Assembly (NCBI RefSeq): GCF_008362905.1
Contig: NZ_VFJB01000010.1
Span: forward strand, 1-64,000
Length of the DNA stretch: 64,000 bases
From: Deferribacter autotrophicus
GTDB taxonomy: Bacteria > Chrysiogenota > Deferribacteres > Deferribacterales > Deferribacteraceae
Reading direction: 5' to 3'
The position numbers were made by a program, and so were the translations under genes. Positions within the stretch are counted from its first letter, which is position 1; each line of letters starts with the position of its first letter. Below the pieces are notes generated by a model, which worked only from the letters and a program-made list of their open reading frames with translations, did no database searches and was not told the DNA's origin. Positions 32,403-44,825 of this stretch are shown piece after piece.

Positions 32403-32449
32403 ACTCCTAATCTAATTCACTCAAAAACTTTTTTCAACAAATATGATAT

Positions 32450-32740
32450 ACAATGTTCAATGTTCAACGTTCAAAGTTATAATTCAAAATTCAAAATCCA
32501 AAATTAATTCATTATCTTTCTACTTTCCTACATACCATTACAAAGCAAAGCAATCTAAGTACTATCAGTAAGTCATGACTCGACACTCTTCAGTACAACA
32601 CCCCCGATTCGCGAATCGAATACCATACACTCACCATTCGTTCTGCCTAAACTTCAACCTTGAACTTTGAACGTTGAACATTGAACATTGAACTTTTTCT
32701 ATCTTCCACTACTTTTAACACATTACAACCTTATTTCATT
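32450..32740. repeat. composite intergenic repeat, copy d, with inverted TTCAA tracts
   Basis: TTCAATGTTCAACGTTCAA at 32455-32475 is inverted as tandem TTGAACNTTGAAC units at 32650-32690. These run into CTTTTTCTATCTTCC and CATTACAACC (32692-32730). No reading frame of interest is present. Confidence 0.5.
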
Positions 32741-32745
32741 AAAAT

Positions 32746-32786
32746 TTGACTATAATCAAAGAAAAAGATAAATCTACTCCTATTAT
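32746..32786 (+). promoter_or_regulatory. FNR/DNR-type box and promoter of the SBP-GTPase-ABC cluster
   Basis: TTGACTATAATCAA at 32746-32759 matches the FNR-family consensus TTGAT-N4-ATCAA at nine of ten positions. A TATTAT -10 box follows at 32781-32786. A start site near 32794 would place the box centre at -41.5, the class II activation position. The regulator itself is not in the window. Confidence 0.6.
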
Positions 32787-32821
32787 TAGTTGCAGAATAA
32801 AATAAAGAGGTGAAAAGAAAA

Positions 32822-34024
32822 ATGAAACCAGATATAAAAATAAAGGATCTTTTACAGAAAAAACCAAAAGCTGTAAATTTTTTCAAAAGTATTGGTTTTA
32901 AAAATATCGAAAAGGAAAATAGCCCTTTAAGATTGCTCACATTAAACTCTTTAGCCAATATGAAAAAGATAAATGTGGATACTCTAATAAGCCAATTGGA
33001 AGAATATCTTGAAATAGAAGAAAACAAAGCAGATATCACTCTCTTAGAGCAAAATAAAAAAGGTGATATAACCATTGCCGGTGTATTACCATGCCCTGTA
33101 AGAATACCTTTACTTGAGAAAATTAACGAAAAGATAGAAGAATTTGAACTCTCCAAAAATCATCAGGTAAACATTAACCTTGAGTCCGCATCAAAAGGCC
33201 TTGAATGGATGAAAGAAATAATAGACTTTGATAACCCTGATACTATCCCTGACATCTCTATTTCTGCAGGCTTTGAATTCTTTTTATACGAAAAATCCAA
33301 AAAATTAATCAAAAAAGGTTTTTTTGAAGATGTGGTACCAACCCCTTTAAATAGCGATTTTGAAGATATAAATCTCAAAGATCCTTACAATGCACTCTCC
33401 GTTTTTTCCGTGGTACCTGCCATCTTTATGGTAAATTTGGAAGAGTTAAATGGCAGGGAAATACCAAAATCATGGAAAGATCTCATTTTCGGTGATTATG
33501 AAAATCTTGTTTCAATACCCGTTGGAGATTTTGACTTGTTCAACAGTATATTAATCCACATCTATGCTGATTATGGTGAGGAAGGGATTGAAAGATTACA
33601 AAAAATCATGTTTACTGGACTTCATCCGACGGTTGCGGTAAAAACTCAGCAAATGAAAAACAGTCAAAAACCTGCTGTAACCGTTATGCCTTACTTCTTT
33701 TCCAGAATGGTGGGCAACTTACAAACGGTAAAAATTATCTGGCCAGAAGATGGAGCAATTATCAGTCCTATCTTTGCTCTTGTTAGAAAAGATAAAAAAG
33801 ATAAAATAAAACCTCTTACTGATGCTCTCATATCAAAAGAAGTGGGTGAAATATTATCTCACAGAGGACTTTTCCCATCTTTAAACCCTGAAGTAAAAAA
33901 CACACTTATTGAGCCCGGAAACTTCAAATGGGTGGGCTGGAACTATTTATTTGAAAACAATGTTGAAGAGTTAATAATTAGACTTAATAAACGTTTCGAA
34001 TCATTAGCAGGAGTTGTCAAATGA
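32822..34024 (+). CDS. cytoplasmic substrate-binding-protein-like protein with N-terminal DUF1858-like domain
   Basis: I place the start at 32822 (400 residues), with AAAGAGG upstream; a GTG 12 bases earlier is possible. Residues 1-75 form a helical DUF1858-like domain (IKDLLQKKPKAVNFFKSIGF). The remainder resembles iron-type periplasmic binding proteins: PDISISAGFEFFLY, PYNALSVFSVVPAIFMVN, PKSWKDLIFGDYENLVSIPVG. No signal peptide or membrane helix exists, so it should stay in the cytoplasm. The stop overlaps the GTPase start. DUF1858 is often linked to hybrid-cluster proteins, but no function is established here. Confidence 0.7.
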   Translation: MKPDIKIKDLLQKKPKAVNFFKSIGFKNIEKENSPLRLLTLNSLANMKKINVDTLISQLEEYLEIEENKADITLLEQNKKGDITIAGVLPCPVRIPLLEKINEKIEEFELSKNHQVNINLESASKGLEWMKEIIDFDNPDTIPDISISAGFEFFLYEKSKKLIKKGFFEDVVPTPLNSDFEDINLKDPYNALSVFSVVPAIFMVNLEELNGREIPKSWKDLIFGDYENLVSIPVGDFDLFNSILIHIYADYGEEGIERLQKIMFTGLHPTVAVKTQQMKNSQKPAVTVMPYFFSRMVGNLQTVKIIWPEDGAIISPIFALVRKDKKDKIKPLTDALISKEVGEILSHRGLFPSLNPEVKNTLIEPGNFKWVGWNYLFENNVEELIIRLNKRFESLAGVVK

Positions 34025-34710
34025 AACTTATAACAGTAAGCGGTCCTCCATCATCAGGGAAAACAAGTATTATTATTAAAGCCACTGATGAACTGCAAAA
34101 TAGAGGTTTAAAAGTAGCAGTGGTAAAATTTGACTGTCTTTCCACTGATGATGATAAGATTTATGCTAAAAAAGGTGTACTTGTAAAAAAAGGATTATCA
34201 GGCTCCATCTGTCCAGATCATTATTTTGTAAGTAATATTGAGGAATGTTTTAATTGGGCAAAAGAGCAAAATGTTGATATCCTGATAAGTGAAAGTGCAG
34301 GACTTTGCAACAGATGTTCACCACATATAAAAGACATTTTAGCTGTTTGCGTTATCGATAATTTATCAGGGATTAACACCCCAAAAAAAATCGGCCCAAT
34401 GCTTAAAGGTGCCGATATAGTCGTCATTACAAAGGGTGATATCGTATCTCAAGCTGAAAGAGAGGTTTTTGCATTGAAAGTCAAAATCGTTAATCCAAAG
34501 GCATTCATTATGCATGTAAACGGCATCACAGGCCAGGGAGCAAATGAACTTGTAAACCTTCTTTTAAAAGCAAAAGATACAGACTCAATCACTGAAAATA
34601 AATTAAGATTTCCCATGCCGGCAGCTGTTTGCTCTTATTGCCTTGGTGAAACAAGAATCGGCAAACAGTATCAAATGGGAAATGTAAGAAAAATGGAAAT
34701 GGGTGAGTAA
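34021..34710 (+). CDS. HypB/UreG-like SIMIBI-class GTPase
   Basis: This 229-residue protein begins with the P-loop VSGPPSSGKTSI (residues 5-16) and has a switch-like ISESAGLCNRCSPH region (about 94-107). VITKGDIVSQAE provides the guanine-specificity TKGD motif. The C-terminus ends with CSYCLGETRIG. The cysteine pairs CNRC and CSYC could bind metal. Homologs HypB and UreG load nickel into enzymes. The linked SBP-like and ABC genes suggest a metal- or cofactor-handling role, which is inference. Confidence 0.75.
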   Translation: MKLITVSGPPSSGKTSIIIKATDELQNRGLKVAVVKFDCLSTDDDKIYAKKGVLVKKGLSGSICPDHYFVSNIEECFNWAKEQNVDILISESAGLCNRCSPHIKDILAVCVIDNLSGINTPKKIGPMLKGADIVVITKGDIVSQAEREVFALKVKIVNPKAFIMHVNGITGQGANELVNLLLKAKDTDSITENKLRFPMPAAVCSYCLGETRIGKQYQMGNVRKMEMGE

Positions 34711-34711
34711 T

Positions 34712-35704
34712 ATGAAGTTGAATGAACTTTTAGAAAAATATCCTTACGTAAAAGATATTTTCGACAGTTATAATTTAACATTAGAAAACCTGGACATAAC
34801 TCTGGATCAATTCTTAGAATCGATCAATGAAGATGAATTACAAGAACATGGTGTCACAAAAAATGAGATCCTTGCTACAATAAACAATCTCATAGAAGAA
34901 ATTAAAGAAATTGAAGAGGAAGAAGCTAAATTTAATGTGGAAACCCTTACAATTCTCGGTGGTTTTGACAAGTCAGGACAGAAGGAAGATGTGGAAATAA
35001 CCATTAAAAAAGGCGAGATCATCTCTGTTGTGGGCCCAACAGGTTCAGGAAAAAGTAGATTGCTTGCTGATATCGAATGGTTGGCACAGGGCGATACGAA
35101 TACAAAAAGAACCATTTTAATAAACGGTCAAAAACCTTCTCTGGATTTTAGGTATTCCACAGATAAAAAACTTGTAGCCCAACTTTCACAAAACATGAAT
35201 TTTGTTGTGGATTTAACAGTCAGAGAGTTTATCACCCTTCATGCGGAAAGCCGAATGGTTTTAAATACAGAAAAAGTGGTGCAACTAATTTATGAAAAAG
35301 CCAATGAGCTTGCAGGTGAAAGGTTTGACTTTGATGTACCCATTACCTCTTTAAGTGGTGGTCAATCAAGAGCATTGATGATAGCAGATACAGCATTTTT
35401 AAGTAAATCTCCCATTGTGCTTATTGACGAAATTGAAAATGCAGGAATAAACAGAAAAAAAGCTTTGGAGATATTAGTCAGCAACGACAAAATTGTTATC
35501 ATGGCTACTCATGATCCAATCCTTGCTCTATTGGCTGATAAGAGGCTTGTTATAAACAATGGAAAAATTGCAAAAATAATTGAAACAACGAAAGAAGAAA
35601 AAGAAATTTTACCAGCTTTGGAGAAAATAGATCAAAAACTTTTGAGTATTAGAAACAAGCTTCGTGATGGCTTTGTAATAAACGAAATATATATGGAGGT
35701 ATAA
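34712..35704 (+). CDS. ABC-type ATPase without a permease partner
   Basis: I place the start at the ATG 34712 (330 residues) after GGGTGA; a GTG nine bases upstream is possible. Residues 1-70 form a DUF1858-like helical domain (LNELLEKYPYVKDIFDSYNL) like that of the SBP-like protein. The ATPase domain has VVGPTGSGKSRLL, LSGGQSRALMIAD and PIVLIDEIENAG with the H-loop ATHDP. No membrane protein is encoded in the cluster. It may work as a soluble ABC ATPase with the GTPase and SBP-like protein. Confidence 0.75.
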   Translation: MKLNELLEKYPYVKDIFDSYNLTLENLDITLDQFLESINEDELQEHGVTKNEILATINNLIEEIKEIEEEEAKFNVETLTILGGFDKSGQKEDVEITIKKGEIISVVGPTGSGKSRLLADIEWLAQGDTNTKRTILINGQKPSLDFRYSTDKKLVAQLSQNMNFVVDLTVREFITLHAESRMVLNTEKVVQLIYEKANELAGERFDFDVPITSLSGGQSRALMIADTAFLSKSPIVLIDEIENAGINRKKALEILVSNDKIVIMATHDPILALLADKRLVINNGKIAKIIETTKEEKEILPALEKIDQKLLSIRNKLRDGFVINEIYMEV

Positions 35705-35705
35705 T

Positions 35706-35948
35706 ATGCACGAAGGATGTAGTGGAAATTTTGAAAATGGAAAACAGGTAGTAAATAAACTAAGAATGATGGGTTTTAGCAATCAATACATGCCCATGCC
35801 TATGAAAATAAAATGTAAAAACTGTGAAGAAGAGTTTATGATGGAAACTTTTGAGGCAAAATGTCCGAAATGTAGAATGACTTATGGAGTAACCCCCTGT
35901 CACGCTTTTTCTCCAGAAAATGTCAAGGAAGCAGGAATAGATTATTGA
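35706..35948 (+). CDS. small zinc-ribbon protein
   Basis: This 80-residue protein has the four-cysteine ribbon CKNCEEEF...CPKCRMTYG (about residues 38-63). Additional cysteines lie near the start (HEGCSGN) and in GVTPCHAFSP. It begins one base after the ABC ATPase gene with ATATGGAGG-type spacing, so it belongs to the same operon. Metal binding is likely; function is unknown. Confidence 0.7.
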   Translation: MHEGCSGNFENGKQVVNKLRMMGFSNQYMPMPMKIKCKNCEEEFMMETFEAKCPKCRMTYGVTPCHAFSPENVKEAGIDY

Positions 35949-35989
35949 GAACCGATAAATTTAACTGTTAACTGGAGGCAGAATTTTAA

Positions 35990-36322
35990 ATGTTTAAAAG
36001 AACACTAAGCAAAGAAAAAAGGATAAAAAAAGACGCAAAAGTTCTAAAAAAATTTATAAAGGTCTATTGTAAGAAAAATCACTTAAAAAACGGTGTAAAA
36101 GAGTACAAAGAAGGATATTGTGAAGATTGTTACGACCTTCTACATTATGCTTTAAAAAGAAATGAAAAATGTCCTTTAGATCCTAAACCTCAATGTAAAC
36201 ATTGCACTATTCACTGTTATAAACCCGAATACAGAGCAAAAATCAAAGAAGTCATGAAATTTAGTGGAATTTATTTCCTAAAAAGAGGCAGACTTGATTG
36301 GGTATTTCATTATTTCTTCTGA
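35990..36322 (+). CDS. YgbA-family protein (nitrous oxide-stimulated promoter family)
   Basis: This 110-residue protein matches the YgbA family. It has FIKVYCKKNH, YCEDCYDLLHYALKR, CPLDPKPQCKHCTIHCYKPEYR and MKFSGIYFLKRGRLDWVFHYF. In enterobacteria ygbA is induced by nitric oxide through NsrR, and homologs occur by nitrosative-stress genes. The conserved cysteines may hold metal or an Fe-S cluster. Its place at the end of the SBP-GTPase-ABC operon, behind an FNR-type box, suggests that the whole set responds to NO or low oxygen. Confidence 0.85.
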   Translation: MFKRTLSKEKRIKKDAKVLKKFIKVYCKKNHLKNGVKEYKEGYCEDCYDLLHYALKRNEKCPLDPKPQCKHCTIHCYKPEYRAKIKEVMKFSGIYFLKRGRLDWVFHYFF

Positions 36323-36331
36323 TGAAAATAC

Positions 36332-36364
36332 AAAAAAAGCCCCTCAAAAGAGGGGCTTTTTTTT
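36332..36364. terminator. bidirectional rho-independent terminator
   Basis: GCCCCTC (36339-36345) pairs with GAGGGGC (36350-36356) around AAAA. A seven-A run lies on one side and an eight-T run on the other. It separates two convergent genes. Confidence 0.9.
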
Positions 36365-38190: not shown

Positions 38191-38799
38191 ATGAAAGCCG
38201 TACTTATTTTTCCGGAAAGGTGCATTGGTTGTAAACATTGTGAACTATCGTGTGCTATTGCACATTCTCAAACAAAAAGTCTGTTTAGCATGTTTTCAGA
38301 GAAAATTATTTCAAAACCTAGAATTCATGTAGAAGTTGGTGAAGATCTTCTAACATTTCCAAACAAATGCAGACACTGTAATCCTGCTCCTTGCATAGAA
38401 ATTTGTCCTACAAATGCTATTGTAAGAGATGAAAGTACCGAATTTGTTTTGGTGGAATATAGTAAATGTATAACATGTGGCATGTGTGCCATAGCTTGTC
38501 CTTTTGGAATAATCACATTTGATAAGACACCAAATGTAATGACTAACAGGAGTGTTAATCTAAAATGTGACAATTGTATTGAGAGAGTGGAAGAAGGTAA
38601 AGAACCTGCATGTGTTGAAGCATGCAAAACAAATGCTTTGGTATTTGGAGAAATAAATAATTTAATCGGCAAAAAACGGAAAAATATTACTAAAACAGTT
38701 ACAAAATCTCCGGATGAAGCAGAGGAATTTGAATTACCAGAAAATATTAAATTGTGGCGAAGCATGTTAAAGCATGAAGCCCACTCAAACAAAAATTAA
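38191..38799 (+). CDS. cooF: CooF-like four-cluster ferredoxin
   Basis: This 202-residue iron-sulfur protein has four cysteine groups: CIGCKHCELSC (11-21), CRHCNPAPCIEICP, CITCGMCAIACP and CDNCIERVEEGKEPACVEAC. This is the DMSO reductase subunit B/CooF arrangement. CooF takes electrons from CooS and hands them to a partner oxidoreductase. It is cytoplasmic, with no signal peptide. GGGGG lies upstream of the start. It is the first gene of the CO operon, 18 bases before cooS. Confidence 0.88.
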   Translation: MKAVLIFPERCIGCKHCELSCAIAHSQTKSLFSMFSEKIISKPRIHVEVGEDLLTFPNKCRHCNPAPCIEICPTNAIVRDESTEFVLVEYSKCITCGMCAIACPFGIITFDKTPNVMTNRSVNLKCDNCIERVEEGKEPACVEACKTNALVFGEINNLIGKKRKNITKTVTKSPDEAEEFELPENIKLWRSMLKHEAHSNKN

Positions 38800-38817
38800 T
38801 CAAATAAGGAGGTAAAA

Positions 38818-40698
38818 ATGCCTAAAAATTGGAAACCTGAAGATAAATCTATAGATCAGGCAACTCAAGAAATGATAAAAAAAGCAGAAAAAGAAAATAT
38901 TGAAACTATATGGGATAGGTTGGAAGCTCAACAGCCACAATGCGGTTACGGTCAGCTGGGTATATGTTGTAAAAATTGTTTTCAGGGACCTTGTAGAATA
39001 GATCCTTTTGGTGATGGACCTAAGAAAGGGGTATGTGGAGCAACCGCAGATACCATAGTAGCAAGAAATTTAGCGAGAATGATAGCTGCGGGCGCTGCGG
39101 CTCATTCAGATCACGGTAGACATGTTGTCATAGCGATGTACGAAGCGATTGAACATGGTGCACCCTATCCTATAAAAGACGAAAAGAAATTAAAATCCGT
39201 TGCTAAAAAGCTTGGTATAGCCGTGGATAATAGGGAAATCAAAGAAATTGCAAAAGATGTAATAAAAAAAGCATTCGAAGACTTTGGGAAACAAGATGAT
39301 AGTATCATAAATTTTGCTGATGCCTATGCAAATGATAAAAGGAAGCAAACATGGAAAGATGCTGGAGTTGCACCAAGAAATATTGACAGAGAAGTAGTAG
39401 AGATAATGCACAGAACAACTATGGGAGTTGATCATGACACCGTTTCTTTAATCGCTCAAGGTATAAAAGCTTCTCTTGGAGATGGATGGGGCGGATCTTT
39501 AATAGCCACTGAATTTCAGGATATACTTTTTGGAACACCGCAAATAGGAAAAAGAGAAGCAAATTTAGGCGTTCTTAAAGAAGATTATGTTAATATTGTT
39601 GTACATGGACATGAGCCTGTTCTTTCAGAAAAAATAATTGAGGCTGCACAAGATCCAGAGCTTATAGAGCTTGCAAAAAAATATGGCGCCAAAGGTATAA
39701 ATGCAGTTGGAATGTGCTGTACAGGTCTTGAACTTTTGGTAAGACATGGCACTCCCATAGCTGGTAATTACTTACAACAGGAATTAGCTATAGTTACAGG
39801 TGCAGTTGAGGCAATGGTAGTTGATGTGCAATGTATAATGCCTTCTTTAGTAGATGTGGCAAGATGCTTCCATACAAAAATTATTGATACAAGCTCGTTG
39901 GCTACTTTTCCTGGTGCTACCCATATCAAATTTGATGAAAGAAAAGCAGACGAAATAGCAAAAGAAATAGTTAGAACAGCCGTTGAAAATTTTTCAAATA
40001 GAGAAAAAAACAAAGTTCAGATTCCAAAAGGCAAAAGTGAAGCAATAGGTGGTTTTTCCGTTGAAGCTACTCTTGAAGCATTAGGTGGCAGCTTACAACC
40101 ACTAGAGGATGCAATAAAATCCGGTACAATTAGAGGAATAGTTGGTATAGTTGGCTGCAATAATGTTAAGGTAAAACATAATTATAATCATATTACTCTC
40201 ACCAATGAGCTTATAAAAAACGATATTCTCATCATTGGAACCGGCTGTTGGGCAACAGCATGTGCGGAATACGGTATATTCTTACCTGAGTATGCGAAAA
40301 ATGCTGGCGATGGATTAAGAACTATTTGCGAATCACTTGGTATTCCACCGGCTTTAAATATGGGCTCGTGTGTTGATTGTTCAAGGATGCTTGTACTTGC
40401 AGATTTGATGGCAAGAGATTTAGGGGTTGATATTTCGGATTTACCTCTTGCAGGTTCTGCTACTGAAGCAATGACGGAAAAAGCAGTTTCCATAGGGACA
40501 TATTTTGTTGCTTCAGGAATATTCACCCATTTGGGTACTACACCTCCGGTTCTTGGCAGTCAAGAAGTTGTAAAAGTATTGACAGAAAATGCTTTTGATA
40601 TTGTGGGTGGAGCATTTTATGTCGAACCGGATCCGGTAAAAGCAGCCAAAACTTTAACCGAGTATATAGAGAAAAAGAGAAAAGCTTTGGGAATTTAA
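38818..40698 (+). CDS. cooS: CooS, anaerobic Ni-containing carbon monoxide dehydrogenase
   Basis: This 626-residue enzyme oxidises CO with water to CO2, giving two electrons. Cluster B/D cysteines are C42, C50, C51, C54 and C59 (QCGYGQLGICCKNCFQGPC). C-cluster ligands are visible as HGHEPVLSE, GMCCTGLEL, VDVQCIMP, VGCNNVK, GTGCWATACAEYG and GSCVDCSRM. Length matches monofunctional CODH, and no acetyl-CoA synthase genes are nearby, so the role is CO oxidation rather than acetyl-CoA synthesis. AAGGAGG precedes the start. The maturation factor CooC is encoded downstream in the same run. Confidence 0.97.
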   Translation: MPKNWKPEDKSIDQATQEMIKKAEKENIETIWDRLEAQQPQCGYGQLGICCKNCFQGPCRIDPFGDGPKKGVCGATADTIVARNLARMIAAGAAAHSDHGRHVVIAMYEAIEHGAPYPIKDEKKLKSVAKKLGIAVDNREIKEIAKDVIKKAFEDFGKQDDSIINFADAYANDKRKQTWKDAGVAPRNIDREVVEIMHRTTMGVDHDTVSLIAQGIKASLGDGWGGSLIATEFQDILFGTPQIGKREANLGVLKEDYVNIVVHGHEPVLSEKIIEAAQDPELIELAKKYGAKGINAVGMCCTGLELLVRHGTPIAGNYLQQELAIVTGAVEAMVVDVQCIMPSLVDVARCFHTKIIDTSSLATFPGATHIKFDERKADEIAKEIVRTAVENFSNREKNKVQIPKGKSEAIGGFSVEATLEALGGSLQPLEDAIKSGTIRGIVGIVGCNNVKVKHNYNHITLTNELIKNDILIIGTGCWATACAEYGIFLPEYAKNAGDGLRTICESLGIPPALNMGSCVDCSRMLVLADLMARDLGVDISDLPLAGSATEAMTEKAVSIGTYFVASGIFTHLGTTPPVLGSQEVVKVLTENAFDIVGGAFYVEPDPVKAAKTLTEYIEKKRKALGI

Positions 40699-40726
40699 AG
40701 GAAGGGCAGTCCCCTCCCTTTAAATT
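40692..40726 (+). promoter_or_regulatory. intercistronic hairpin between cooS and the nuoE-like gene
   Basis: Arms 40692-40706 and 40712-40726 form a 15-bp stem with one mismatch and a five-base loop. It is followed by AATTTTAA rather than a long T-run, so it could be a partial terminator or an RNA-processing site that sets the ratio of CooS to the diaphorase subunits. Confidence 0.6.
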
Positions 40727-40740
40727 TTAAGAGGTAAACA

Positions 40741-41232
40741 ATGGATGCAAAAACCATAGATGAAATTATCGAAAAGTATAAAAATCCATCAGGTATGGTG
40801 TTAGGTATTTTGGAAGAAATACAAAATATCAATAAGTATTTATCTAAAGATGCATTGATTTATGTTTCAAAAAAAATCAATGTACCTTTTTCTCAATTGT
40901 ATAGTGTGGCAACGTTTTATTCGTTTTTTAATTTAAATCCCGTAGGTGAACACATTATAAGCGTTTGTACGGGTACTGCATGTCATGTGAAAGGTGCTGC
41001 CGAGATACTTAAATCGCTGGAATACCTGCTTGGTATAACCAAAGAAGAATCTACAGAGGATTCGAAGTTTTTTTTAACCACTCATGATGGATGTTTTTCC
41101 CTAAATGCGGCTCGTTGTTTTGGTTGTTGCTCTATGGCACCTGTCATAAAGGTGGATGATAAAATGTATGGCTATGTAACAATCCAGAATCTACCAAAAA
41201 TACTTAAAGAGTATGGCTGGAGTAAAAAATGA
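40741..41232 (+). CDS. NuoE-like [2Fe-2S] subunit of a CO-linked NAD(P)H oxidoreductase
   Basis: This 163-residue protein belongs to the 24-kDa complex I/HydC family. An N-terminal helical bundle is followed by a thioredoxin-fold domain with ligands in CTGTACHVKGA (about 79-89) and CFGCCSMAP (about 128-136). It carries a [2Fe-2S] cluster beside the flavin subunit. GAGG lies ahead of the ATG, and the stop overlaps the next start by four bases. With the NuoF-like protein it should form the NAD(P)-reactive part that receives electrons from CO. Confidence 0.9.
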   Translation: MDAKTIDEIIEKYKNPSGMVLGILEEIQNINKYLSKDALIYVSKKINVPFSQLYSVATFYSFFNLNPVGEHIISVCTGTACHVKGAAEILKSLEYLLGITKEESTEDSKFFLTTHDGCFSLNAARCFGCCSMAPVIKVDDKMYGYVTIQNLPKILKEYGWSKK

Positions 41233-43148
41233 AAATTACGTCATTGGAGGATTTGGAAAATATAGCCAGAAAAGGTTTAAAAAAATTAAATCCCGATAAC
41301 AAAGTACGCATAAGTGTAGGATTTGCGACATGCGGTATTTCGGTAGGAGGGGATGATGTTTTTAAAACCTTTAAAGAGAAAATATATGAAAGAAAACTTA
41401 ATAACTTAGAACTATGTAAGACAGGTTGTATAGGTTTTTGCGGAGAAGAACCTCTTGTAAATATAAAGATGCCGGGCAAAAGTATAGTAGTGCTACATAG
41501 AGTAACACCTAATGATGTGGATGATATATTGCAAAAAATAGAAAATGAAACATACGAGTTTCATAAGGCTTTCTTTAAAATAGATGATTGGGATCACGTA
41601 ACATCCAAAATACATTATGGTGACGGTTATGAAAATATACCTAAATGGAATGAAATAAAATTTTTTAAACCTACTAAAAGAGTCGTGTTAAGAAATTCTG
41701 GAATTATAAATCCCGAAGATATCGATGAATATATTGCTGTGGGCGGATACAGATCCCTTTATAAAGTTATAAAAAGTATGACTCCTGATGAGATAATTGA
41801 AGAAGTAAAAAAATCCGGATTAAGAGGTAGAGGAGGAGCAGGATTTCCAACCGGATTGAAATGGGAATTTGCAAAGAAAGAACAAAGTGATGTCAAATAT
41901 GTTATATGCAATGCGGATGAAGGTGATCCGGGTGCTTATATGAATCGAAATGAAATGGAATCTGATCCACATATGATAATTGAGGGAATGATAATAGGAG
42001 CCTATGCGACAGGGGCAACCGAAGGTATAATTTATATAAGAGCCGAATATCCTCTGGCTGTAGAAAGGTTTAAAAAGGCTATAAATGACGCCAAGAAGTA
42101 CGGATTATTGGGAGAAAAGATATTGGGAAGTAACTTTAATTTTGACATAATAGTAACAGAAGGAGCAGGTGCTTTTGTATGTGGTGAAGAAACAGCTTTA
42201 ATAGCTTCTGTGGAAGGGGAAATAGGAAGACCGAGATTAAAACCACCGTATCCTGCTCAAAAAGGGTTATGGGGTAAACCGACAAATATTAACAACGTTG
42301 AAACATGGAGTAATGTCCCCGTAATAATAGCAAAGGGTGGTGATTGGTTTTCCAAACTTGGGACCCAAAAAAGTCCTGGTACAAAAGTATTTTCTCTTGT
42401 TGGAAAAGTTAAGAACGTTGGTTTAGTTGAAGTGGAGTTAGGAACCACTATTGATAGGATAGTTAATTATATAGGAAATGATGGCGTTAACAACGGGAAA
42501 ATTAAGGCAGTTCAGACGGGAGGTCCCTCAGGCGGATGTATCCCTGAAAATTTGTTTAATACTCCGATAGATTATGAACATCTTGCTGCGGTAGGATCTA
42601 TTATGGGTTCCGGTGGAATAGTAGTGATGGATGATGATACTTGTATGGTAGATACAGCAAAATACTTTCTTGATTTCTCTATAGATGAATCATGCGGTAA
42701 ATGTGTATCTTGCAGAGAAGGATTAAAACATATGCATGATATATTGGATGATATTACAAAAGGAAAAGCGACATTTGAAGATATTGATACATTGAAAGAA
42801 CTTGCTCAAACTGTAAAAGTAACATCTCTTTGCGGTCTAGGAAAAACCGCCTCAAATCCTGTTTTAACTACATTGAAGTATTTTTATAAAGAGTATGAAG
42901 AGCATGTGAAACATAAACGCTGTTTTGCTAGAGTATGTAAAGATTTGATTCGGTATGTAATAGCCAAAGATGAATGTACGGGATGTACCATTTGTGCGAA
43001 AAGATGTCCCGTAAATGCCATCAACGGAGAAAAAGGCAAGCCTCACATCATTAGTCAAAATGTATGTGTAAAATGTGGAATATGTTATGACGTATGTAAA
43101 TTTAATTCAGTTAAAAAATTATCTGAAGCTATAGGCGGTGAGAAATGA
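41229..43148 (+). CDS. NuoF/HydB-like FMN- and NAD(P)-binding subunit
   Basis: This 639-residue protein has three parts. A thioredoxin-like [2Fe-2S] domain (about 1-110) has ATCGIS and CKTGCIGFCG. The NuoF core (about 140-560) has the NAD(P)/FMN motif GRGGAGFPTGLKW, CGEETALIASVEG and the N3 cluster CGKCVSCREG...CGLG. A C-terminal two-cluster ferredoxin has CTGCTICAKRCP and CVKCGICYDVC. This architecture is that of HydB in electron-bifurcating hydrogenases and of NADP-reducing complexes. Here no hydrogenase subunit follows, so NAD(P)+ reduction with CO-derived electrons is the likely function. Confidence 0.92.
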   Translation: MKITSLEDLENIARKGLKKLNPDNKVRISVGFATCGISVGGDDVFKTFKEKIYERKLNNLELCKTGCIGFCGEEPLVNIKMPGKSIVVLHRVTPNDVDDILQKIENETYEFHKAFFKIDDWDHVTSKIHYGDGYENIPKWNEIKFFKPTKRVVLRNSGIINPEDIDEYIAVGGYRSLYKVIKSMTPDEIIEEVKKSGLRGRGGAGFPTGLKWEFAKKEQSDVKYVICNADEGDPGAYMNRNEMESDPHMIIEGMIIGAYATGATEGIIYIRAEYPLAVERFKKAINDAKKYGLLGEKILGSNFNFDIIVTEGAGAFVCGEETALIASVEGEIGRPRLKPPYPAQKGLWGKPTNINNVETWSNVPVIIAKGGDWFSKLGTQKSPGTKVFSLVGKVKNVGLVEVELGTTIDRIVNYIGNDGVNNGKIKAVQTGGPSGGCIPENLFNTPIDYEHLAAVGSIMGSGGIVVMDDDTCMVDTAKYFLDFSIDESCGKCVSCREGLKHMHDILDDITKGKATFEDIDTLKELAQTVKVTSLCGLGKTASNPVLTTLKYFYKEYEEHVKHKRCFARVCKDLIRYVIAKDECTGCTICAKRCPVNAINGEKGKPHIISQNVCVKCGICYDVCKFNSVKKLSEAIGGEK

Positions 43149-43954
43149 CTGAATATGTGAATATCTACATAAACGGTAGGAAATATGAGGCGAAAAATGG
43201 AGAAATGCTTTTATCAGTAGCAAGAAGAAACGGTATATATGTACCTTCCTTATGTTATGAAGAAGCTCTCGGCGCTTATGGATCATGCCGTATGTGTATT
43301 GTTGAAGTGATAGCAGGAGAGCAAAAAGGTATTACTACTTCTTGTTCGCTTGCTTGCACAAAAGATTTAAAAGTAGAAACAGATACTCAGGAAATAATCA
43401 AACACCGTAAGATACTTATAGAACTATATTTAGCTCAAGCCCCAAACTCTGAGAAAATTCGTGAATTAGCAAATAAATATGGCGTTAAGAATACTAGATT
43501 TAAAAGAAAAATAGAAAAAAAAGATCCTTTGGATAATAAATGTATTCTCTGCGGTCTATGTGTTAGAACATGTAATGAGTTAATTGGAAGAGGTGTAATA
43601 AATTTTATAAATAGAGGTTACAAAACAAAAGTTAATACGCCGTATTTCGAATCCAGCGAAATATGTATGGGATGTAAAGCATGTCTAGAAGTATGCCCTA
43701 CTGATGCCATAACTATAACGGATAAAGGAGATACAAGGATACTATCATCTTGGAGTAATACAACCGTTAAAATGGAAAAATGTATAGGATGTGGTAAGTT
43801 TTCTGTGCCTGAGCCAATAAGAAAAAAAATGGATTCTAAATTTTTCTATGAAGATGAAGTATTAAAGAATTTATGTCCGGATTGTAGAAAAAAACTTATA
43901 ACGAAAAAAGTAACATTAATAAGTGAGAAAAAGGTGGAACAATATGTCAAGTAA
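43145..43954 (+). CDS. NuoG-like iron-sulfur subunit, short form
   Basis: This 269-residue protein corresponds to the N-terminal electron-transfer part of NuoG/HydA. A [2Fe-2S] domain (about 1-80) has PSLCYEEALGAYGSCRMC and SCSLAC. It is followed by a two-[4Fe-4S] domain with CILCGLCVRTC and CMGCKACLEVCP. The HX3CXXCX5C cluster usual between them is absent (AQAPNSEKIREL at that place). A C-terminal CIGCG...CPDC pair of motifs adds four cysteines. No H-cluster or molybdopterin domain exists. It overlaps its neighbours and probably links CooF to the flavin subunit. Confidence 0.85.
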   Translation: MTEYVNIYINGRKYEAKNGEMLLSVARRNGIYVPSLCYEEALGAYGSCRMCIVEVIAGEQKGITTSCSLACTKDLKVETDTQEIIKHRKILIELYLAQAPNSEKIRELANKYGVKNTRFKRKIEKKDPLDNKCILCGLCVRTCNELIGRGVINFINRGYKTKVNTPYFESSEICMGCKACLEVCPTDAITITDKGDTRILSSWSNTTVKMEKCIGCGKFSVPEPIRKKMDSKFFYEDEVLKNLCPDCRKKLITKKVTLISEKKVEQYVK

Positions 43955-44825
43955 GGAAAAAGAAAAATTATTTAGCGTAGCAAAAAAGTTAAAGGAAAAA
44001 ACCAATAATGATAATGAAAATCTAGAGTTTAAAATTGTTGTTACAGGTAAAGGTGGTGTTGGAAAAACAACTACTTCGGCTATTTTATCGCATTTGTTTG
44101 CAAAGGATGGATACAATGTGTTGGCAATAGATGAAGACCCTCAGATGAATTTACCATACTCATTGGGATTGGATGAAAAAAAGGCGAGCAAAATTATACC
44201 TTTATCACATAACCTTGACTATATAGAGGAAAAAACAGGTGCAAGACCTGGTACATCATGGGGATTGTTTTTAAGTCTTACCCCTGATGTTAAAGATGTG
44301 GTGGAAAAATTCGGAGTAAAGGTAAATGATAAAATCAGCGTGTTTGTTATGGGGACGGTAGTTCAGGCTGCAACAGGCTGTCTTTGTCCCGAAAATGCCT
44401 TGCTCGATGCTGTTATAAGATACATCTCTTTAAGGAAAAATGAAATAATTATTATGGATACTCAAGCCGGGGTTGAACATTTCGGCAGAGCTTTGGCAAA
44501 GGGTTTTAGACATTGTGTTGTTGTAACGGACTATACTTTCAATGCAATTGAGGTTGCCAAACATACAGCTAAGTTGGCTCAACAAATTGGAATCCCAAAC
44601 ATATATCTGTTAGTAAACAAAATTAGGAAAGAAAGAGACATTGAAAAAGCCAATGAATATTTACAAAGCTGTAACGGTCTATTTAAAGAGGTGTTTTTCG
44701 GAAAACACAGTGATTATATACTGGACAATGAGCCGTTTGTTACACCAGTTATAGATGTAAATGACGAATATATAATAACATTACAAAAACTAAAAACTAC
44801 ACTACAAAGAAATAATATAAACTAA
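43944..44825 (+). CDS. cooC: CooC, CODH nickel-insertion ATPase
   Basis: I place the start at 43944 (293 residues), where AGGTGG lies six bases before the ATG; a GTG at 43923 would add seven residues. This MinD/ParA-type ATPase inserts nickel into CooS. The deviant P-loop GKGGVGKTT is at 35-43, and the CXC metal-binding motif TGCLCPENA (C146, C148) matches CooC proteins. A basic 30-residue N-terminal extension precedes the P-loop. The gene overlaps the NuoG-like gene by 11 bases and closes the CO operon. Confidence 0.92.
   Translation: MSSKEKEKLFSVAKKLKEKTNNDNENLEFKIVVTGKGGVGKTTTSAILSHLFAKDGYNVLAIDEDPQMNLPYSLGLDEKKASKIIPLSHNLDYIEEKTGARPGTSWGLFLSLTPDVKDVVEKFGVKVNDKISVFVMGTVVQAATGCLCPENALLDAVIRYISLRKNEIIIMDTQAGVEHFGRALAKGFRHCVVVTDYTFNAIEVAKHTAKLAQQIGIPNIYLLVNKIRKERDIEKANEYLQSCNGLFKEVFFGKHSDYILDNEPFVTPVIDVNDEYIITLQKLKTTLQRNNIN

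Follow-up and report, generated by a model that had tools for sequence, protein, structure and literature searches.

A 64-kb stretch of the Deferribacter autotrophicus genome (contig NZ_VFJB01000010.1, positions 1 to 64,000; here called the window) carries five genes that encode a substrate-binding protein (SBP)-like protein, a CobW/HypB/UreG-type GTPase, a soluble ABC ATPase, a zinc-ribbon protein and a YgbA-family protein. They occupy 32810-36322 on the + strand, each overlapping the next or spaced from it by at most 41 bp: the SBP-like protein gene at 32810..34024 (alternative ATG at 32822), the GTPase gene at 34021..34710, the ABC ATPase gene at 34703..35704 (start possibly ATG 34712), the gene for the zinc-ribbon protein of 80 aa at 35706..35948 and the YgbA-family gene at 35990..36322. 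A predicted HcpR1/FNR-type operator, TTGACTATAATCAA, lies at 32746..32759, 64 bp 5' of the first gene, and an intrinsic (bidirectional) terminator hairpin, AAAAAAAGCCCCTCAAAAGAGGGGCTTTTTTT, ends the operon at 36332..36363. An earlier reading of this DNA by a model that saw only the letters and their open reading frames (the original prediction) had described five tightly ordered genes, a zinc ribbon and a YgbA-family protein among them, and the open reading frame coordinates and Pfam agree. The set is far from a chance arrangement, since the identical order returns in about 96 loci.

The SBP-like protein joins an N-terminal DUF1858 domain (Pfam, 2e-11) to an FbpA-type SBP fold (SBP_bac_6, 1e-67), and was matched in 23 of 40 genomes comprising the host and its relatives. 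Its AlphaFold2 model (pLDDT 88.7) resembles the FbpA/FutA ferric-binding proteins of ABC importers and P5PA, a pyridoxal phosphate (PLP)-binding protein (Foldseek E about 1e-12, TM 0.5-0.7). While sharing the SBP fold with FbpA/FutA, the protein differs from them in its added DUF1858 domain, in having neither signal peptide nor permease and in its cleft region, where an invariant Cys-Pro (residues 95-96 by GTG numbering, Cys91-Pro92 from Met 32822) stands at the start of a helix just past the first strand of the SBP domain in alignments and in the model; we take the position of FbpA His9 to lie near it by fold. In the sequence alignment, an invariant Phe292-Phe293 (numbered from Met 32822) takes the place of the two adjacent iron-binding tyrosines of C. 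jejuni FbpA (1y4t), and on the loss of this pair we rejected a ferric-iron carrier. By a hydropathy count, 97 of 98 SBP homologues lack an N-terminal membrane segment, in agreement with the predicted lack of a signal peptide. A DUF1858 selenoprotein appears in a review's list and a TGA was flagged in one relative's SBP match (L022), but we set a selenoprotein reading aside because that relative's genome has a full-length frame of 395 aa (L046).

The ABC ATPase (ABC_tran 9e-16) conserves Walker A, Q-loop, LSGGQ, Walker B and H-loop, and the same hydropathy count found no membrane segment in 101 homologues. Its N-terminus gives a weak DUF1858 match (0.003) and is homologous to that of the SBP (hhalign 96%, E 2e-9), so that Pfam and hhalign bear out the DUF1858-like N-termini that had been described on both proteins. 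A single-gene DUF1858 protein is under NnrR in Bradyrhizobium (PMC6710368), a further link of this domain to nitric oxide (NO).

The GTPase has a CobW/HypB/UreG domain in Pfam (cobW 1e-12) and two CXXC motifs (CNRC and CSYC) whose cysteines are invariant among nine relatives, as expected of the HypB/UreG-like GTPase with two such motifs that had been proposed. Its CPDH motif, also invariant in the nine, aligns with the metal-binding CP(H) motif of UreG when set against UreG/HypB structures. In an alignment of 25 homologues the zinc-ribbon protein begins with MH[DE]GC and continues with CXXC...CXXC...PCH; its commonest Pfam match, a weak one, is HypA (19 of 25 homologues at E<=0.01). The pair thus resembles the HypA-HypB/UreG nickel-insertion GTPases in GTPase family, in the UreG-like CP(D)H and in a zinc-ribbon partner with a HypA-like match and an MH[DE] start. 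Unlike them, the GTPase lies far below the curated family cut-offs (hypB 55.6 versus 121.2 bits, ureG 40.5 versus 204.2 bits) and has extra CXXC pairs, the window's zinc-ribbon protein falls below the HypA cut-off (21.7 versus 28.9 bits) and lacks a HypA fold match, and an SBP and an ABC ATPase accompany the pair. A mini-HypA identity for the zinc ribbon, hinted at by sequence and unmatched by fold, stays a lead. The YgbA-family protein passes both Pfam YgbA_NO (PF11756, 8e-23, 81 versus a cut-off of 25 bits) and NCBIfam NF007714 (113.2 versus 88 bits), and its alignment contains invariant Cys/His residues.

A one-genome-per-species scan returned at least 550 relatives of the GTPase. The best 80 of these come from Deferribacterota, Desulfuromonadales, Firmicutes, Bacteroidota, Acidobacteriota, Spirochaetes, Fusobacteria, Cloacimonadota, Fermentibacteria, Krumholzibacteria and others, and include triad loci in the host-associated genera Fusobacterium, Peptostreptococcus and Treponema. 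Across the roughly 96 loci, drawn from many phyla, the order SBP-GTPase-ATPase is nearly invariable, forming a fixed triad that the zinc-ribbon gene accompanies in 59 of 96 cases. Because it is found near the triad in just 20 of 96 loci, YgbA is accessory and the triad is the core; its predicted place in the set therefore stands for this operon and for Deferribacterota, where it is a frequent partner, but not for the core. No permease cluster recurred beside the triad in the approximately 96 loci, whose individual neighbours were not each Pfam-scanned; the recurring membrane genes, all identified by eye, were those for Rnf subunits and for a DMT transporter in syntenic Deferribacterota loci and an ABC-2-like gene in Bacteroidales. 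The cytosolic character predicted for the triad proteins and the lack of a partner permease support the view that they do not form an importer, as the original prediction had argued from an ABC ATPase without a permease.

Position 32746, where the original prediction had begun its segment, is also where an exact TTGAC-N4-ATCAA box begins. It is the only exact TTGAYNNNNRTCAA site in the window, and the host genome contains 17, mostly intragenic. Using the operator types given for HcpR regulators (PMC1274295), we searched the 250 bp that precede the SBP gene at 93 loci, with 838 other genes of the same loci as the control. Exact HcpR1-type TTGAYNNNNRTCAA boxes preceded the triad in 36 of 93 loci compared to 2.1% of control genes (p about 2e-26), and exact HcpR2-type GTAACNNNNGTTAC boxes in 12 of 93 compared to 1.1% (p about 7e-8); the two groups do not overlap and together make up 48 of 93 loci. 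The distance from box to SBP start is mostly about 35-95 bp. The HcpR2 type, GTAAC-N4-GTTAC, occurs in Firmicutes, Bacteroidota and Fusobacteria loci, and four Halanaerobium loci have a CRP-like box in place of HcpR boxes. At nine of the 36 loci the HcpR1 box stands between the triad and a divergent hcp, the gene for the hybrid-cluster protein, whereas the other 27 and the 12 HcpR2 boxes are not shared in this way; most of the shared regions hold two boxes, so one box per gene is possible.

The main text of Rodionov et al. 2005 (PMC1274295) describes an HcpR regulon (hcp, frdX) whose HcpR1, HcpR2 and CRP-like boxes match those of the triad and which likewise has hcp as a partner; it also gives a rule linking HcpR regulator residues to box type and makes no mention of a GTPase or ABC transporter among HcpR targets. 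The resident triad regulators obey this rule, with residues 180/181 of the Crp/Fnr-family protein fitting the box type in three classes: Arg-Pro with GTAAC boxes (L130, and L056 and L103, each one mismatch from exact), Arg-Glu at all four Halanaerobium loci, where the box is CRP-like, and Pro-Glu at two loci with TTGAY boxes (L038 and L063). Two loci, L111 and L122, have an Arg-Pro (HcpR2-type) regulator yet no exact box upstream. The host's one full-length Crp/Fnr-family match has Ala-Glu recognition residues and, having no cysteine, is not an iron-sulfur (Fe-S) FNR. The host hcp carries the same box type, TTGACTCAAATCAA, 76 bp upstream, and HcpR-dependent NO induction of hcp has been shown experimentally elsewhere (PMC12915319).

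Two further observations concern regulation at other sites. A gene for an iron-sulfur protein, possibly a further regulon member, has an exact TTGAC-N4-ATCAA box (L151:1501, G000:C6:178140) 52 bp from its start. Rrf2-family regulators (NsrR/IscR-like) occur near the triad at L101, L110, L115, L116, L124, L066 and L131, one example having a cysteine cluster, which suggests an alternative NO or Fe-S sensor over the triad at those loci.

The original prediction had proposed looking for hcp in the gene neighbourhood, and hcp does adjoin the triad in 23 of 96 loci from several phyla (the neighbour cluster has 24 members, the 24th being the window's own carbon monoxide dehydrogenase (CODH), which we excluded). 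The gene lies directly downstream in the same direction in Firmicutes, Spirochaetales and Cloacimonadota, and is divergent in Desulfuromonadales; four triad-adjacent Hcp proteins and the host Hcp all score far above the NCBIfam Hcp cut-off. Among 196 Clostridia genomes, 13 encode the GTPase and 101 (52%) encode Hcp, which is present in all 13 triad genomes (p 1e-4; 2e-4 once the centre genome is left out). Hcp was found in 26 of 30 triad genomes, the other four, whose assemblies are possibly incomplete, showing none. It is nearly universal in 118 Desulfuromonadales (106), and in genomes of this order with a close GTPase (>420 bits) it lies within 10 kb in 12 of 24. Together, boxes that co-vary with the regulator, the box at the host hcp, hcp adjacency and Hcp co-occurrence provide good support for placing the operon in a predicted NO-responsive HcpR regulon, and strengthen the NO link that had been drawn from the protein families. 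By eye, genes near the host hcp (L137:1-12644, G000:C6) encode multihaem cytochromes, ferredoxin-type proteins and a molybdopterin oxidoreductase of the size of a NapA-like nitrate reductase, a set that would suit nitrate/nitrite reduction.

We tentatively read the five genes, at a little under an even chance, as an HcpR-controlled nitrosative-stress operon of anaerobes whose likeliest task would be the repair or rebuilding of NO-damaged metallocentres. Family resemblance (the UreG-like CPDH, the HypA-like zinc ribbon and the FbpA-like fold) suggests that the triad moves or repairs a metal or cofactor, and from these features and the NO links of DUF1858 and ygbA we infer an ATP-/GTP-driven cytosolic machine that would handle a metal or metal-thiol under NO stress. 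In the proposed mechanism, an HcpR-type NO-responsive regulator of the Crp/Fnr family would turn on the triad along with hcp. The SBP-like protein may have been recruited as a cytosolic carrier whose ligand, presumably not ferric iron held by a Tyr pair, would contact the conserved Cys-Pro near the N-lobe ligand site of FbpA. The ABC ATPase, docked through the DUF1858-like domain common to both, would open and close or unload the carrier, and the GTPase, aided by the zinc ribbon and YgbA where present, would pass a metal ion to the product. Fe-S centres or the Hcp hybrid cluster could be repaired or rebuilt in this way, with Hcp meanwhile removing NO.

We found no published description of an SBP-GTPase-ATPase set in the literature searched, and no described precedent for an importer SBP and ATPase that lack a membrane part and are paired with a HypB-like GTPase. 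Soluble ABC ATPases acting on metallocofactors are a known principle, exemplified by SufBCD; in contrast to that system, the operon has no SufB/SufD-type partner and its ATPase has a different N-terminal domain. The E. coli/Salmonella NsrR regulon (ygbA, ytfE, hcp-hcr) is likewise NO-induced and contains hcp together with ygbA, an NsrR target (PMC2884951, PMC5320621). The sensor there is NsrR, whereas here it would be HcpR. We know of no SBP-GTPase-ATPase set in the NsrR regulon of these species. With somewhat less confidence than the operon's assignment, and still short of even, we suggest that the triad represents an energy-driven cytosolic machine of a new class, with an importer SBP and ABC ATPase turned inward and coupled to a metallo-GTPase; across anaerobic phyla it would repair the Hcp hybrid cluster or metallocentres damaged by NO. 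How strict anaerobes survive NO beyond Hcp and how NO-damaged metal centres are rebuilt are both poorly known, and a set of three genes that is widespread, compact, genetically tractable and predicted to share the regulator of hcp opens a direct test.

Several observations weigh against repair under HcpR control. Phylogenetic kinship among the loci makes the p-values overstate how much of the evidence is independent; the match between box and regulator across several phyla is independent of this kinship. The parts that we read of two published NO/hcpR studies (PMC12915319, PMC5701242) do not mention the triad. The zinc-ribbon model gave no significant fold match, and HypA is absent among the Foldseek matches listed. 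Of the 183 other Clostridia, 88 have Hcp but no triad, which makes the triad an addition to Hcp and not a requirement for it. Finally, a paralogous triad subfamily in Deferribacterota relatives (L049-L053), with CP[FVI]K in place of CPVR in the SBP, lacks the HcpR box, the zinc ribbon and YgbA, which suggests reuse elsewhere, so that such a machine would work outside the HcpR regulon too. Neighbours of this subfamily include RND efflux genes and, at L050, also a catalase-like gene.

The same distribution of Hcp bears on whether the triad proteins are dedicated Hcp maturation or reactivation factors that build or restore its Fe-S-O hybrid cluster. Hcp is often an operon partner or divergent neighbour and accompanies the triad in every triad-bearing Clostridia genome and most others, but the many Clostridia with Hcp alone, the four triad genomes without a visible Hcp (possibly incomplete) and the detection of Hcp in our control, E. 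coli, from which we know of no triad, make this unlikely. Somewhat less likely still is disposal of NO adducts, in which a putative pocket of Cys-Pro and Phe-Phe would let the SBP bind a dinitrosyl-iron or S-nitrosothiol, an adduct that the ATPase and GTPase would then release or dismantle; the invariant Cys-Pro at its helix start, the invariant Phe in place of the iron tyrosines and NO regulon membership would all fit, but a metal-GTPase is less directly accounted for. Since TTGAY-N4-RTCAA is the FNR consensus too and most hosts are anaerobes, the triad might instead serve a housekeeping metal function in a general anoxia (FNR) regulon with no NO specificity. We consider this improbable given the cysteine-free regulator of the host, the GTAAC-N4-GTTAC boxes in Firmicutes, Bacteroidota and Fusobacteria, and hcp as the partner gene.

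An ordinary ABC importer with its permease encoded elsewhere, the usual setting of SBP and ABC ATPase families, is very hard to reconcile with the lack of a recurrent permease gene, the SBPs without signal segments and an ATPase N-terminal domain of the same kind as the SBP's. Equally remote is a role as nickel-insertion factors for the CODH 2.5 kb downstream (CooS at 38818-40698), for which a HypB/UreG-type GTPase and a HypA-like zinc ribbon would be suited, but CODH does not adjoin the triad in a same-genus genome or other relatives, an HcpR box precedes the operon, and this nickel enzyme, which we used as a co-occurrence comparison, is present in 5 of 13 triad Clostridia versus 38 of 196 overall (p 0.08); with adjacency not conserved and co-occurrence not significant, we rejected CODH or nickel as a client of the triad. 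The genome has two CO dehydrogenases. The one about 2.5 kb downstream of the operon, in the 38191-44825 region, has ferredoxin and NuoE/NuoF-like genes alongside, and the other (G000:C10:76410-78122) has a CooC-like ATPase and a ferredoxin. At 32410-32740, 5' of the operon, lie clustered TTGAAC/GTTCAA-type word repeats.

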